From contig NC_016478.1 in NCBI RefSeq assembly GCF_000226095.1, positions 1,850,001 to 1,914,000 of the forward strand: a stretch of 64,000 nt of DNA, written 5' to 3'. This DNA is from Thermothelomyces thermophilus ATCC 42464 (lineage: Eukaryota; Ascomycota; Sordariomycetes; Sordariales; Chaetomiaceae). The position numbers and the translations under genes were made by a program. The notes beneath the pieces were generated by a model. That model searched no databases, had not been told where the DNA came from, and saw only the letters and a list, made by a program, of their open reading frames with translations. Below, piece after piece: positions 47,115 to 63,122 of the stretch (position 1 is its first letter; each line of letters begins with the position of its first letter).

Positions 47115-48289
47115 TTATTCGTCCATGCTGCTGTCTACCGCGCTGCTGCTCCCGCCGGTCTTGTTCGCCTTGATGACGCTCCGCCAGTTCTTGGTCTTGG
47201 CCAGCTCCTCCGCGTTGGCGAATCCCTTGCTCTGTGCCCACTTGTCATTGACTTCCTCCGGCGTGGCCAGGAGCTGCTTCTTGAGCACCGGCACGTACGT
47301 CCCCGTCGCCCTCGCCGTGTTCCCGCCCTCAAACACCCGCTGGCTGCTGCTCGGCTTCTCCGGCAGGCCCGACTCGGCCAGCCTGCGGCCGAGGTTCGCC
47401 TTCCGCGCGACCGAATCCAGCAGCTGGTTCGCCAGCAGCTCGTCCATCTTGCGCTCGCGCCAGCCCTCCCACAGATTGTCTACCAACCCGTTCGGCCCGT
47501 GCAGGTTGGACGGCCTGTCCTCGCCCAGCCATACCCAGTCGATGGCGTCCTGCAGGTTGGTGTCGACCTGCGCATCCGGGTTGTGCACATCCAGCGCCGC
47601 CTTCTTGCTCTTGAGCTCATCCTCCCTGGGGAAGATGCAGTCCCACAGCACCAGCGGCACCTCGTCGGCCATGGTGTAGTTCGGCTTGCGCGGGTATTTC
47701 TCCACGTCCAGCAGGTCCGTCACCAGCGACGGCTTCTCCAGCCCCTGGCCGATGAGGAACAGGACGGCGACCATGTGCCGGATCTGGTGCCACAGGAACG
47801 CCGAGCCGCGGACGTGAAAGTAGTACACCTTGGGGTACGCCGTCCCGTCCGCCGAACCGTCCGCCTTGAAGTCGGGCAGGTCCAGGTACGGCAGCGCCGA
47901 GCCCGTGTCTTTGACCTCGACAATGTCCGCCTCGAACACCCTCCGCGTGAAGTTGGTGATCTGCTTGGCGCCGTCGACCTTGCAAAAGTTGCGGAAGTCG
48001 TGCACGCCCTCAAACAGCTTGGCCGCCTGCCGCATGGCGCCGATGTCGAGCCAGCCCTCCTTGCCCCCCCTTTTGCCCTCCGGGTCCAGCGAAGCCGGCA
48101 GCGGCGTGAAGGCGGGCTGGGTGAAGAAGTACCGATACTGCCGCTCCCAGCACGAGAAGCGCGCCGAGAAGCCGGCCGGCAGCGTCGGCGCCCACGCCAG
48201 CACCCGGATGTCTGGCGGCAGCAGCCGGTTCAGCACGCGCGGGTAGTTGATCTCGTCCGCGATCGGATCCCACGCCGGTTTCCCCCCGT

Positions 48290-48340
<51 letters not shown>

Positions 48341-49322
48341 CCTGGTCCCGCATGACCACATCGCCCCCTTGCTGCTGCTGCTGCTGCTGCTGCTTCTCCT
48401 CCTCCTTCTTTGCTGCCGGTGTCGGCGCCGGCGCCACCGGCCGGTTGCTCCGCAGGCGGATGCCAATCACCTGCCCAAAGGCGCTCACCCCGCGGTCGGT
48501 GCGGCCGCACTTGGAGTACTCCCAGGGGCCGAAGTCGACGCGGGCCGGGTCGTCGGGCCAGATCAGGCAGCTCTTGACCAGCGCCTTCCACAGCTCCTCC
48601 TCGACCGTCGGCACCGTCACGCCGGCCTGGTACTCGAACCCACCATAGCGCTTGCCCAGGTAGGCCAGCTTGAGGGCGACCAGGCGGGTCGAGTACTTGG
48701 AGGGGTCGATCTTGGAGGCCTTCTTGGCCTTCTTCTTCTTCTCTTTGGGAGGGTAAGGGTTTGGCCCCGCGGGAGGTGCCGTCGATGAGGATGCGGCCGG
48801 GGTCGAAGCTGGTAATGAAGGCGGAAGGGGTTGCTGCTGCTGCTGCTGCTGCTGCTGTTGTTGTTGTTGTTGTTGTTGTTGTTGTGGCTGCTGCTGTTGT
48901 TTTCGGTTTTGGTTTTCTTGTTTTTGTTGCTTTGTGGCGGGCTGCTGATTTTGCTGATTTTGCTGATTTTGCTGATTTTGCTGATTTTGCTGATTTTGCT
49001 GATTTTGCTGATTTTGCTGATTTTGCTGATTTTGCTGATTTTGCTGATTTTGCTGATTTTGCTGATTTTGCTGATTTTGCTGGAGTTGCTGTTCCAGCTC
49101 CTTGACGCGCTCGAGGAGCTGGTCTCTGGACCAGTCCTGATAGTTGCGGTTGTCTGTCATGGTTTGTGAGGCCGCGGATGAGCTTGAGCGGCGGCACAAT
49201 TGTGGGTAAGAAAATGCACGGCTTGCGGCTCGAGATGGTGGTCGTAGCAGCAGCAGCGCGACCACAGATCGGCCTTGCGCTTGGGTGAGAGCCTTCCAAG
49301 CGCTACTGGAAATAACATTCAT
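47115..49322 (-). CDS. deg1: tRNA pseudouridine-38/39 synthase Pus3/Deg1
   Basis: One exon, 735 residues from the ATG at 49322. The TruA-type catalytic motif KCGRTDRGVSAFGQ holds the Asp nucleophile. Flanking family motifs are LKLAYLGKRYGGFEYQ, RVLNRLLPPDIRVLAW, GVHDFRNFCKVD and SAFLWHQIRHMVAVLFLIG. In yeast the enzyme makes pseudouridine at positions 38 and 39 of cytosolic and mitochondrial tRNAs. The first 54 residues (MNVISSSAWKALTQ...RAASRAFSYPQLCRRSSSS) are Arg/Ser-rich without acids and look like a mitochondrial presequence; a second Met at 49160 (MTDNRNYQDW) would make a cytosolic form. Between the coiled-coil start and the catalytic domain lie about 15 copies of Gln-Asn-Gln, then poly-Q. 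A GEGEGE run (about nine GGGTGA units, at about 48288-48343) interrupts the domain. The frame stays open upstream but only to a TTG. Confidence 0.9.
48288..48343 (-). repeat. Hexanucleotide (GGGTGA)n, Gly-Glu coding
   Basis: About nine tandem six-base units inside deg1, coding for alternating Gly-Glu within a surface insert of the synthase domain. Confidence 0.9.
48944..49083 (-). repeat. Nonanucleotide minisatellite coding (Gln-Asn-Gln)n
   Basis: About fifteen nearly identical copies of the 9-bp unit TCAGCAAAA in deg1. Its near perfection, including synonymous positions, indicates recent expansion. Confidence 0.95.
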
Positions 49323-49750
49323 AGGACCATGGAATCTAAACACTGGTCCCCTTCTCTTTCCCACTTTCAAATTATCGTGTTTGAACCCGCCCGCAGCAGG
49401 TGTCGGCAGGTGGAAGCAATGTCCAAGTGAGCTTTTGTCAGTTGTGGGTCCCGTAAGATCGAAGTTCCTTTGTGCGGATTACAAGTATGGATCCGTAAGG
49501 TAAGGTTCCTAGTTAGTTAGTTACAAAACTACGGTACAGTACTGTACAAATTGTACCGCTAGTGTACAGCTAATCCCGTACACACTTTATTACCACTTTG
49601 TTACTTTGTGCTTGTCTTGCAACTGCGTAAATGAATCTTGGCATGAGCGATAAGCTCTGCGAATTGCTGATAAGGACGGTCGAGTAATAGAGTGATAACC
49701 GGTGAAGGAATCCATTGCGCAACGCTCACTTGACGACAAGCATCATCACA
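49323..49750. other. Divergent intergenic region of deg1 and the CaaX GTPase
   Basis: Shared promoter region. Contains GTGCGGATTACA at 49472-49482, GATCCGTAA at 49490-49498, a GGTACAGTACTGTAC palindromic string at 49533-49547, and AGTGTACA nearby. No gene. Confidence 0.45.
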
Positions 49751-50549
49751 ATGGAGGAACACACAGTCACAATCCTGTTGCTGGGAGACGAGGGATGCGG
49801 GAAATCAACTTTTCTATCGTCAGTACCCTTTCGAACCAGCCTCTCAGAGTCGCCGCCCCGACGTCCCGGAGATGCATCCTTTCTCTTCCATTAATACAAG
49901 ATACATAGCATTTTATGCTGTATGGACATATAGGCACACGCGGCTGACCCCGCGCAGGAGGATAAGCCGGGGGCGCCAGAACCTCCGATCCAACTCCCCC
50001 CTCGCTCTCCTCCGAGACGGGGACCAGCCGTTTGTTTTCGACATCCGCACTCGCAAGGGACAGTATCGCTTCGAGTTCTATGACACTTCTAGCCCCGAGA
50101 ACTGGAGGCTCCTCCGACCAGACCTCGTCATTATCTGCTACGACATAAGCCAGCGGCTCAGCCTCATCAACCTCCAGCGGGTGGTACGTCCCCTGCCAAC
50201 CGAGATCCTCCCCTCCCATCTCCAAAAAGTAAGCGAATCGAGCCGGAGTTGACAGCGTCATCCCCAGTGGATCAAAGAAGTCCGTTCGACGTTCCCAACA
50301 AGCGACACCCTCCCCGTGGTGGTGCTGGGGCTCAAGCGGGACCTGCGGTCCGAGGATGACCCGAATGGCATCATCTATCCGCAGGAGGGATACCGGGTCG
50401 CACAAGAAATGCGGGCCGACAAGTACATCGAGTGCTCGGCCGTAAGCGGCGAGTTGATGATCGAGGCATTTGACGACATCTGCAGCACCGCCATCAAGAC
50501 AACGACCGCAGCCGGCGGGCAGAGCGAGGGCAGCTGCACGGTTATGTGA
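49751..50549 (+). CDS. Atypical Ras/Rho-like small GTPase with CaaX box
   Basis: Exons 49751-49818, 49958-50183 and 50268-50549 give 191 residues. The P-loop GDEGCGKS (12-19) is canonical. Switch I is replaced by RISRGRQNLRS and a low-charge segment. The G3 motif reads YDTSSPENW instead of DTAGQ, so the Gly that senses the gamma-phosphate is missing. G4 reads GLKRDLR (a K-x-D variant) and G5 is ECSAVSG, Rho-like. The C-terminus CTVM is a farnesylation-type CaaX box, so it should be membrane-anchored. First donor is GTCAGT, which is unusual; phase and alignment support it (STFLS-RISRGRQN). Related proteins occur in other filamentous fungi as far as I recall, but the function is unknown. Altered G3 suggests slow or absent GTP hydrolysis. 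Confidence 0.8.
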
Positions 50550-59620: not shown

Positions 59621-62600
59621 TTACCGATTCGCCAACCAGGCAAACTTTTTCTTGGCCGACTCCGCCGCCCCCCCGCCGGTCGTGGGCTCAACCTGAACAC
59701 TGCGTTGGTAAAGATCCTGTCGCGAGATTAGCAATGCATCCTCAGACAAGGGAACCAGAGAAGTGTGTGTGAAAGAGAGAGAGAGAGAGAGAGAGAGAGA
59801 TCCTACCTCTTCATCGGTGGATATCCGGCAATCTAGGATCAGCTCCCTGCAGGCCTCGTGGCGCTGCAGGTTCGGGTACGGCTGGCCCTGGCTCTTCATG
59901 ATGGGCAGCAGGACCTCGCCGAGCACCTCGAACTTCTTCCAGTTGATGCGGTCGCCGCCGGGCCCCACAAAGGTCTTGCTCCCCTCCTCGGCCGAGACCA
60001 GGTCGCGCCTGTGCAGGGGCATGAAGGGGATGCGCGGCAGGGGCGAGTTCTCCCAGGCGAGCCGGTAGGCGAAGTGGCTCTTTTGGGTGCCCATCAGCAG
60101 CACCAAGCCGGCGAACCGCTTCTGCACCTCCGGCGAGACCAGCGCGCGGGTCTGGGCGAGGCGGTGGATGGAGGTGCCGTTGATGCCCGCCAGCACGGCG
60201 GCCAGGCCGTTGTAGTTGTTCATCTGGCGCAGCTTCTGGGCGACCTGCATGAATTTCTCGAGGCAGGGGGCGCGGTGCTTGGCCTTGTCCCGGATCAGGA
60301 TCATGTTGGCGACCCACTGGGCGACGTGGTTGAAGTGGGCGACCATGCGGTTCATGTTCCTGAGCTGCCGGCACTTCTCCTTCTGCTCGTGCGAGAGGCT
60401 GACGTGGCGCACCATGTCGCGGATGCGGATCGAGCTGAACATGACCCAGTCTATCCGCGTCATCTCGTCCGCGACCTCCTCGACGTCAAGCTCCATGAAC
60501 TGATGGTACCTGAACTTGTTGAGGGGGAGGACGGGCGCGGGCACGAGGGTGGCCGCTTCGGCCTCGTAGTCTTCGACCGAATGGAACTGGAGCCGGGCCG
60601 GTCCGCGAGGGGGGCCGCGGCCCTCGATGCCGGACAGGTCGGAGCTCTGCGACGCGCGCCGCTGGCTTGGTGCTACTGCTGCTGCTGCTGCGCCCGGCTC
60701 GTCCAGCTGCAAGGAGCTCATCGACTCGGTCATGCCTCGCACCCTCTGTCCGGCGGCGGAAGCGGGCTCCTTGCTCTCGTTCTCGTCCGGCGGATCCGAG
60801 TTCGCCCACCCGGTATCGTCGTCCACCGTGACCTTCTGGTCGAGGTGCATCCGCATCTGCTGCGCGGCCGCGAGGAAGACTGGCTCCCTCGCGAGCTGCT
60901 GGATCAGCTCCTCCAGACTGTTCCTCGTCGCCGACCTGGCAAAGTCTCCGGGGTACAGGGAGAGCCACTTGGCCACCACTTCGATCGTGCGCATCTGCGC
61001 CTCTACCTTGATCAGGTACTCCATCGTCCGGTCGTTCCGCAACTGGTCCAGCCGTGCGCGGATTGCCGTGAGCAGTGCGGACGGAGCAGCGAACTTGCGG
61101 TACAGGCATAGGAAGATATCGGCAAAACTGTGATCGGCTTTCGACATCTTGGGGGCGAGAAGCCTGTCGACGAGCTCGTCAAAGGTGACGCCCGCCACCT
61201 TGGCCTGCCTGTCACTGCCGTCATCGCTCCGCCGCCGGGTCGAGGCGCCCTCGGAGAACTGGTCGCCGTCGGATTCGTCAACGTCGAGGAAGCTCTCGCC
61301 CCCCCCGTCTAGCCGGATGCCTGGGGTCCGCAGCATGCTCGACAACGTCTGCTGCTTGCCGTCCTCGGTGATGGCGGCGGCGCTGCCGGAGCTCAGGTTG
61401 CTGCCGGAAGCGGCGCTCTGGTAATCCGGTCTCGGCGACCTCGAGGCCGGTCCTCTGTGCTGACTCTCGTGGGGAGGCTGCGGGAAGCCGCGCAGGAGCG
61501 AGAAGTCGGAGCTGGCCCTGCTGTGTTTACTGTGCTGACTGATTGGGCGTCCGTTATGGAAGTCCGTGAGCGCGTCAAGGTTCGCCGTCGAAGCAGCACG
61601 CCTCCTGGGACCCGAGCCCTCCGACTTGTCTGATTGCGTTCGTTAGTCACCTCTCGCAGCGGATTTGCAGAACCAGGACCCGGAGGGGGGAGGACGGTGG
61701 GGGAGAGGAGGAAGAAGGTGGGTTAGACAAAAGGGAGATAGAGGCTCGAGACCGTATTCTCAGCCAGCTTGGGATAGTCAATCGGTTGGGACGAGGACGC
61801 TCACCTCTTCGGTTGGCGAGTGCAGCTCTCAGCATGGCCTGGAGGCACTCGCGGGCGCTGGCTGGCGCGTTGGACGCGGTCCTGAAGTGGCCTGCGCAAG
61901 TAGCAAATGCCGATGCGAGCCCGGCGAGATCTGGGTGTCGTAGGTCGTCGGGCGCGTCACACTTGGTGGCGACGAGGACGGTGGGCAGGGAGGAATTCGC
62001 GAGGGCAGCTGGGCCAATGACCAATGAGCATGCGCGCGCGACGGCTCGCCGGGCTCGGTTGGGAGACAGAGAGACTCACCCATAATCGGGGGCACCTCCC
62101 GCATACTCGCTTCATTCACGGCGTCGTACAGGATCATTGCGCCGTCCATGCGGGGCACCGAGTGACCTCCGATCTGCTTCGGCCAGTGCACGGGCTGGTT
62201 CGGGTCCAGCTCGATGCCCTCGAGATCGAGCTCGACGATGGTGACGAGGTGGTTCACGCCGTCGAGCTCGTGGCGGAGGGTCGTGATGTTCGAGCTCGAC
62301 GGCCTGGGGGCCCGGCGCAGGTGTTGTATGAAGGTGGATTTGCCGACGCCTACGGCGCCAATGACGGCGATGTTGATGGGCTCCATGTCGTTGCGGGCAT
62401 GCTCAAACTGGACCAGAGAAAAATTGAGAAAACGGTCAGCCCCGGAGGTCCTTCTCCTTTTCCTTTTCCTTCTTCTCCTTCTTTTTCTCGGGCGCGTCTT
62501 GGAGATGGCATTGTGGCGGCGACTCGACAGCCGCGCGCGTTTCCCTTGCACTCCAAGCGGCGGGGATTATATAAAAAAACAAGGACGGGCAGCGTACCCA

Positions 62601-63122
62601 GGGGGTCGGATTGGTATGGCTCAGAGACTCTTTCCGTGGCGGGATCCACGGTTGTCGCTCCTCGTTACGGTGGCCAGCACTCGTCGTCGGGGCGGTCGAC
62701 GCGCCGGGTTGGGGGGGCGCGGGACGGGAATGGGATTGTGGCTGCGGCTGCGAATGTGGATGGGAATGAGGGTGAGCAGGATGCGGCTCGGGGACGGCGG
62801 CAGCGATTGGGTCGGGGACGGGGTCGGGATCGGGATTGTGGTAGCGAAGGAAAAAAGGGTCGTCGACGATCGAAGCGAAGGAATCCCTGGTGCCGGCGAC
62901 GGGAGGGTCGTCGACGAGCAAGAAAGTGCTTTCGGAGCCAGCGATGGAGGAAAGCTGTCCGGATGGCGGAGCCAAGTCTGGTTCGCCTGTTCTCCCCGTC
63001 GCAGCGGCTGCATCAGCGCCAACAGCTCCCGGCGGGGTACTGGCCGGCAGCACAGGCTCAGAGAGCTGCGGCAGCGCTGCCCCGGGACGGTCTGACACGG
63101 CCTGGTGAGTCTGTGCCCACAT
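59621..63122 (-). CDS. Fusion protein: P-loop GTPase domain plus RasGEF (Cdc25-type)
   Basis: Exons on the minus strand: 63122-62598, 62407-62080, 62008-61805, 61629-59807 and 59716-59621, in frame, 991 residues. Residues 1-175 are Pro/Ser/His-rich and disordered (QPQPQSHSRPAPP). A Ras-like GTPase domain follows (about 183-350): P-loop GAVGVGKST (192-200), G4 TKCD (299-302), and ILYDAVNEAS like the Ras LVYDV; a DTAGQ motif is absent. A Ser-rich linker leads to a RasGEF_N module (about 497-610, VTFDELVDRLLAPKMSKADHSF starts it, IFLCLYRKFA is conserved) and a catalytic RasGEF domain (about 730-955) with ITGT-like NNYNGLAAVLAGINGTSIHRL and FVGPGGDRINWKKFEVLGEV. It should catalyse GDP release on a Ras/Rap-type GTPase at the membrane. 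The start is the ATG at 63122 (MWAQTHQAV); a 4-codon uORF precedes it by 2 nt. Confidence 0.85.
59775..59800 (-). repeat. (GA)n in the last intron of the RasGEF gene
   Basis: About thirteen GA units (TC on the transcribed strand) directly after the GTAGGA donor of the 90-nt intron 59717-59806. Confidence 0.9.

Follow-up and report, generated by a model that had tools for sequence, protein, structure and literature searches.

A RasGEF of Thermothelomyces thermophilus with a predicted degenerate Ras-like domain in the same chain

The question raised by this locus is whether a single polypeptide joins a Ras-like P-loop GTPase domain (G domain) to a RasGEF and, if so, what such a domain could do within an exchange factor. 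The gene occupies positions 63122-59621 on the minus strand of the window, by which we mean the 64,000-nucleotide stretch of T. thermophilus ATCC 42464 contig NC_016478.1 that was analysed as a whole. An earlier note, made from the letters alone, had placed a Ras-like GTPase domain ahead of RasGEF_N and Cdc25-type domains, and our profile scans recover the three domains in this order (Table 1). At the level of the predicted protein, the fusion of G domain and RasGEF is confirmed. The architecture is not new: it has already been published, and the gene is a further RasGEF of the GefC kind. Our additions are small: a reading of the G-domain motifs and a doubt about the Miro label that GefC carries, both derived from one sequence.

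Gene model and domain layout

We reproduced the five-exon model proposed in the earlier note, which gives an open protein of 991 residues. All four introns, at the joins 62598/62407, 62080/62008, 61805/61629 and 59807/59716, have GT..AG ends and measure 190, 71, 175 and 90 nt in order. A branch-like site of the form CTRAY occurs in introns 1, 3 and 4, and none was found in intron 2 (62079-62009). The signals of intron 3 read GTGAGC, ACTAACG and CAG, and the branch-like site of intron 4 (59806-59717) reads GCTAATC. The joins are predicted to hold at the RNA level. Just within the 5' end of intron 4 lies a run of CT dinucleotides (59774-59800, minus strand). This intron is open and its length is a multiple of three, such that a protein made with the intron retained would gain 30 residues.

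Third-position GC content (GC3) lies clearly above that of the other frames, which reach at most 0.66, in exons 2 and 4, and modestly above it in exons 3 and 5. Exon 1 is the least certain part of the model. Its GC3 does not exceed that of both other frames, and translation might therefore begin at Met183 in exon 2 instead.

Table 1 Exons, predicted domains and G-domain motifs of the RasGEF gene. Positions are those of the window; GC3 is given for the coding frame, then for the two other frames.
Feature	Position	Strand	Residues	Remarks
Exon 1	62598..63122	-	1-175	N-terminus rich in Pro/His, probably disordered; GC3 0.66 vs 0.72/0.61
Exon 2	62080..62407	-	176-284	First part of the G domain; GC3 0.86 vs 0.66/0.39
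Exon 3	61805..62008	-	285-352	Last strands of the G domain; GC3 0.73 vs 0.68/0.61
Exon 4	59807..61629	-	353-960	Linker, REM and CDC25; GC3 0.88 vs 0.63/0.45
Exon 5	59621..59716	-	961-991 and stop	C-terminal tail; GC3 0.69 vs 0.58/0.52
Degenerate Ras-like G domain (predicted)	61812..62386	-	~183-350	Contains intron 62079-62009; PF00071, TIGR00231
RasGEF_N (REM)	60911..61198	-	497-592	PF00618, E 1.3e-12
RasGEF (CDC25), catalytic	59930..60478	-	737-919	PF00617, E 7e-50; IPFMPL..EEGSKTF retained
G1/P-loop GAVGVGKST	62333..62359	-	192-200	Val194 at the Ras Gly12 column (alignment)
G3 DLEG	62216..62227	-	236-239	Next residue is Ile240, in the Gln61 column of Ras (alignment)
G4 TKCD	61956..61967	-	299-302	Motif reading and alignment
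G5-like TASN	61869..61880	-	328-331	TSA[KR] at this place in Ras proteins

The domains were assigned by profile scans with Pfam, of the whole protein and of residues 176-357 excised from it, and with TIGR00231 (small_GTP). The Pfam check of the 991-residue model that had been proposed in the earlier note makes the RasGEF_N and RasGEF assignments certain. For the G domain, PF00071 (Ras) reaches 22.9 bits (E 7.2e-5) in the excised residues, above its cut-off of 21.6, and 17.0 bits, under the same cut-off, in the whole 991-residue protein. GTP_EFTU (23.7 bits vs a cut-off of 26.5) and MMR_HSR1 (21.2 vs 21.9) both miss in the excised residues, and TIGR00231 gives E 2.2e-7 with 30.8 bits, under its cut-off of 42.5. 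A match of residues 183-350 to a P-loop GTPase profile had been singled out beforehand as a point on which the proposal could fail, and the excised PF00071 score provides that match.

Exon 2 alone gives no Ras match at E<=0.1 and only weak matches to P-loop NTPase models of Pfam, all under cut-off, while exon 3 alone gives no Pfam match at this threshold, Ras included. Passing the Ras cut-off thus requires exons 2 and 3 together, which supports the splice 62080/62008. The locus is missing from the lists of two exon-by-exon searches of the genome, one with PF08477 (42 candidates scored) and one with PF00071 (50 candidates scored), from the latter because the Ras match needs the joined exons. 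Four of five control sequences (four shuffles and one reversal) had no match at E<=10, and the fifth had an unrelated match with E 0.32.

Comparison of the G domain with the PDB by phmmer gives weak matches, the best being Era (E 0.0032) and Di-Ras (E 0.0059). Against the ORFs of 20 GTPase loci of its own genome, a tiny database, the matches are again weak; we do not take the best of them, a RAS2P-like ORF at E 0.0069, as a sign of descent. A search of the genome for further copies of the G domain at E<=10 returned only the two exons of the query itself. It is very likely, judged from these letters and profiles, that the P-loop GTPase domain is real and that it is remote from the profile families searched.

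Class of the exchange factor and the Miro label

Aspergillus fumigatus has four RasGEFs, GefA and GefB of an SH3 class, GefC of a RasGRP class credited to van Dam et al. 2009, and GefD of an LTE class (PMC6522298), and Neurospora is likewise credited with four RasGEF genes (PMC12525002). GefC (Afu1g04700) is described as having an N-terminal 'Miro' domain, its class is called fungi-only, and homologues are mentioned in N. crassa and C. neoformans (PMC6522298). The earlier note mentions such proteins in other filamentous fungi, though no described function. The layout of GefC is in print together with the phenotype of the gefC deletion, namely later germination and sensitivity to cell-wall stress (PMC6522298). 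The authors of that study proposed RasB as the partner of GefC on the basis of co-occurrence. The SH3-bearing Cdc25 of Epichloe interacts with RasB in yeast two-hybrid assays (PMC12851848), which counts against RasB being exclusive to GefC. In the excerpts of the open-licence literature searched, we found no study dedicated to the G domain of GefC and met with no exchange assay for this protein.

We searched the T. thermophilus genome (7 contigs, 38.7 Mb) for further RasGEFs. It contains four RasGEF genes, with five matches to PF00617 distributed over the four and four matches to PF00618, one per gene. One paralogue carries SH3, WW, DUF7783 and DUF7784, and another has SH3 in an adjoining frame. 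The third is Lte1-like by layout, with REM and CDC25 widely separated in a 1716-residue frame, an arrangement that we take to be of the Lte1 type. No Ras match was obtained in the frames scanned of these three genes, and the PF00071 search of the genome lists none adjoining them. The gene at 63122-59621 is the only one of the four RasGEFs in which a G domain was found, and its 991-residue protein has no Pfam match to SH3. The four genes correspond to the four published A. fumigatus types (SH3 with WW, SH3, Lte1-like and the one with the G domain), and assignment of our gene to the GefC type ('RasGRP class') is shown by elimination. Like A. fumigatus GefC, it has a small-GTPase-like domain at the N-terminal side of REM and CDC25 and is a single gene beside two SH3-class and one Lte1-class RasGEF; unlike GefC, which we compare by published description only, it has a G domain that falls short of the Miro/Roc cut-off.

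In a comparison of the REM-CDC25 part with the PDB, Epac2 (RAPGEF4) ranks first with 88.9 bits, followed by RasGRP2 (85.3), RasGRP4 (79.4) and RasGRP1 (78.8), with SOS2 (70), SOS1 (60.8) and yeast Cdc25 (47.5) scoring lower. Among the 28 distinct sequences matched, the order after RasGRP1 is a 'guanine nucleotide-releasing protein' (2ije, presumably RasGRF1), SOS2, SOS1, RalGPS1, yeast Cdc25 and RGL2. The IPFMPL..EEGSKTF stretch, presumably the catalytic hairpin, aligns with Epac2 without gaps. While Epac2 and RasGRP1, 2 and 4 provide the nearest solved CDC25 domains by sequence, the 991-residue protein differs from them in having no match to a cyclic-nucleotide, DEP, C1 or EF-hand domain, and we know of no G domain in any of these four proteins. 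For both SH3 paralogues, yeast Cdc25 is the top match, one of the two queries covering only the first part of CDC25. For the Lte1-like paralogue, Epac2 comes first and the three RasGRPs come last; the Epac/RasGRP ranking is therefore not peculiar to our gene. Domain content and PDB rankings, taken together, set this gene apart from the SH3-class and Lte1-class RasGEFs of T. thermophilus.

A mitochondrial role has been suggested in print for GefC (PMC6522298). For the protein studied here, it is very improbable that the RasGEF is tied to mitochondrial regulation by an N-terminal Miro domain. PF08477 scores 11.9 bits vs a Pfam cut-off of 27, no EF_assoc_1/2, EF-hand or second G domain is found in the 991-residue protein at E<=10, and a membrane anchor is improbable, with a top 19-residue Kyte-Doolittle mean of 1.42 at residue 280. 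A true Miro is encoded separately in the genome, on contig C4, and shows EF_assoc_1/2, EF-hand and two Ras stretches. The likeness to Miro/Gem1 ends with the small-GTPase-like domain, and Miro membership was rejected on the PF08477 score, the absence of EF domains and that of a C-terminal membrane anchor. Roco membership was rejected on the same score and the lack of a COR match.

The source of the published label may lie in the history of the profile. PF08477 was named 'Miro-like protein' in a paper of 2011 (PMC3023805) and still served to find fungal Miro proteins in 2021 (PMC8146680); in present Pfam, it is Roc. The 'Miro' label of GefC may thus derive from the old name of this model, and it would be the label, not the kinship with GefC, that is at fault.

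State and possible role of the G domain

Motif states are read from the one G-domain sequence, which we aligned by MAFFT to four small GTPases from this genome (one entered twice). The motifs quoted in the earlier note, GAVGVGKST, the ILYDAVNEAS strand (residues 267-276) and TKCD, all lie in the gene on the minus strand, starting at 62359, 62134 and 61967, respectively. The G1, G3 and G4 motifs of Ras-type GTPases are all present. DTAGQ is absent, as had been observed; the G3 motif is nevertheless not lost, since DLEG, a valid DxxG, holds its place.

Gly12 and Gln61 have well-known roles in Ras, and neither residue is kept in the G domain, which has Val194 and Ile240 in the respective columns. 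An 8-residue insertion in switch II adds to these changes, and the three features together support the suggestion that the GTPase is of a 'degenerate or sensor-type' kind. Of the four aligned GTPases, three carry Gln in the Gln61 column and the fourth, Miro, carries Arg. The Gly12 column holds Gly only in the RAS2P-like sequence, the others having Ser, Glu and Ala; because this column is mostly non-Gly in the comparison set, Val194 is suggestive and not proof. A review describes the RhoH and Rnd proteins as lacking the glycine at the G12 position and not cycling, and RhoH as GTPase-deficient owing to changes in G3/switch II (PMC13236570). The Ile and Val in the Gln61 and Gly12 columns raise the possibility that the domain binds GTP and hydrolyses it poorly.

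The gene probably encodes a GefC-type RasGEF in which the degenerate G domain is a regulatory or docking module. The REM-CDC25 half would most likely act in hyphal polarity signalling by driving the release of GDP from a Ras-family GTPase; with IPFMPL..EEGSKTF kept relative to Epac2, a working exchange factor is the most economical account. The G domain appears to lack catalytic features of Ras (Ile in place of Gln61, Val in place of Gly12, a changed switch II and G5) and most likely holds GTP, or nothing, without useful hydrolysis, so as to serve the attached exchange factor as a fixed regulatory or docking module and not as its substrate. Candidate substrates are present in the genome, where 4 of the 20 GTPase loci fetched have ORFs with a DPTIE effector loop (C6:463k, C2:742k, C5:2285k and C1:7248k). 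One locus, L026 (C5:2284600-2286200), has a 306-residue frame in which Ras motifs are accompanied by a long insertion ahead of NKCD, near in length to the 317-residue Neurospora RAS2P (PMC12525002).

Other roles for the G domain have to be weighed against that of a regulatory or docking module. CDC25 domains grip switch II of Ras around Tyr64. The earlier note had listed the G domain as a possible substrate of its own GEF, and this is not supported, as the domain lacks the DTAGQEEY switch II found in true Ras proteins. A pseudo-substrate brake, in which the G domain folds onto the CDC25 catalytic site, keeping it closed until displaced by a signal or by true Ras, would fit a domain that is Ras-like yet without the hydrolysis residues, and N-terminal autoinhibitory modules are common among RasGEFs; the divergence of switch II weakens the mimicry of substrate Ras, and we rate such a brake as rather unlikely. 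In SOS, feedback is exerted by free Ras-GTP at a regulatory site. That the G domain, having Val at Gly12 and no Gln61, is locked in a GTP-like state and is an always-on stand-in for Ras-GTP at the regulatory site of its own GEF, with no feedback needed from free Ras-GTP, is a long shot. A further idea is that the RasGEF half loads its own G domain with GTP, with feedback on the GEF or an outside partner. The retained P-loop, DxxG and TKCD are in its favour, as is the precedent of the Dictyostelium Roco protein GbpC, in which the RasGEF domain activates the Roc domain of the same chain (PMC6320773). We nevertheless consider it unlikely here, since the switch II that CDC25 grips in Ras is replaced and carries the insertion, and the states of the Gly12 and Gln61 columns speak against a normal cycle. 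GbpC shares with our protein a Ras-like domain and RasGEF_N/RasGEF in one chain, but it also has LRR, COR, kinase, cGMP-binding and GRAM domains (PMC6320773), none of which is matched in the 991-residue protein.

It could also be argued that a small GTPase-like gene and a separate RasGEF gene have been wrongly joined, as exon 3 read onward runs into a stop at 61647. This stop lies only 17 nt ahead of exon 4, leaving scant room for the start signals of a second gene, intron 3 has the splice signals given above, and an equal domain order is in print for A. fumigatus GefC (PMC6522298). On these three points, the separate-genes reading was rejected as hardly credible.

For the 991-residue protein, our tests argue against the Miro label and point to a hydrolysis-poor Ras-like module on a RasGEF. 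If these features are conserved, GefC would offer a testable case of a pseudoGTPase within an exchange factor in filamentous fungi.

Other genes in the window

A small GTPase gene lies on the plus strand at 50253-50549 and probably begins at about 49734. Its last exon matches Ras with 29.7 bits, over the cut-off; the protein has a CaaX-like CTVM end and looks Rho-like by eye. On the minus strand, a 787-residue frame (47115-49478) contains a tRNA pseudouridine synthase domain (E 3.3e-33) preceded by long tracts of NQQ and poly-Q, and the frame 50600-50974 matches the RNA polymerase Rpb4 family (E 1.6e-14).
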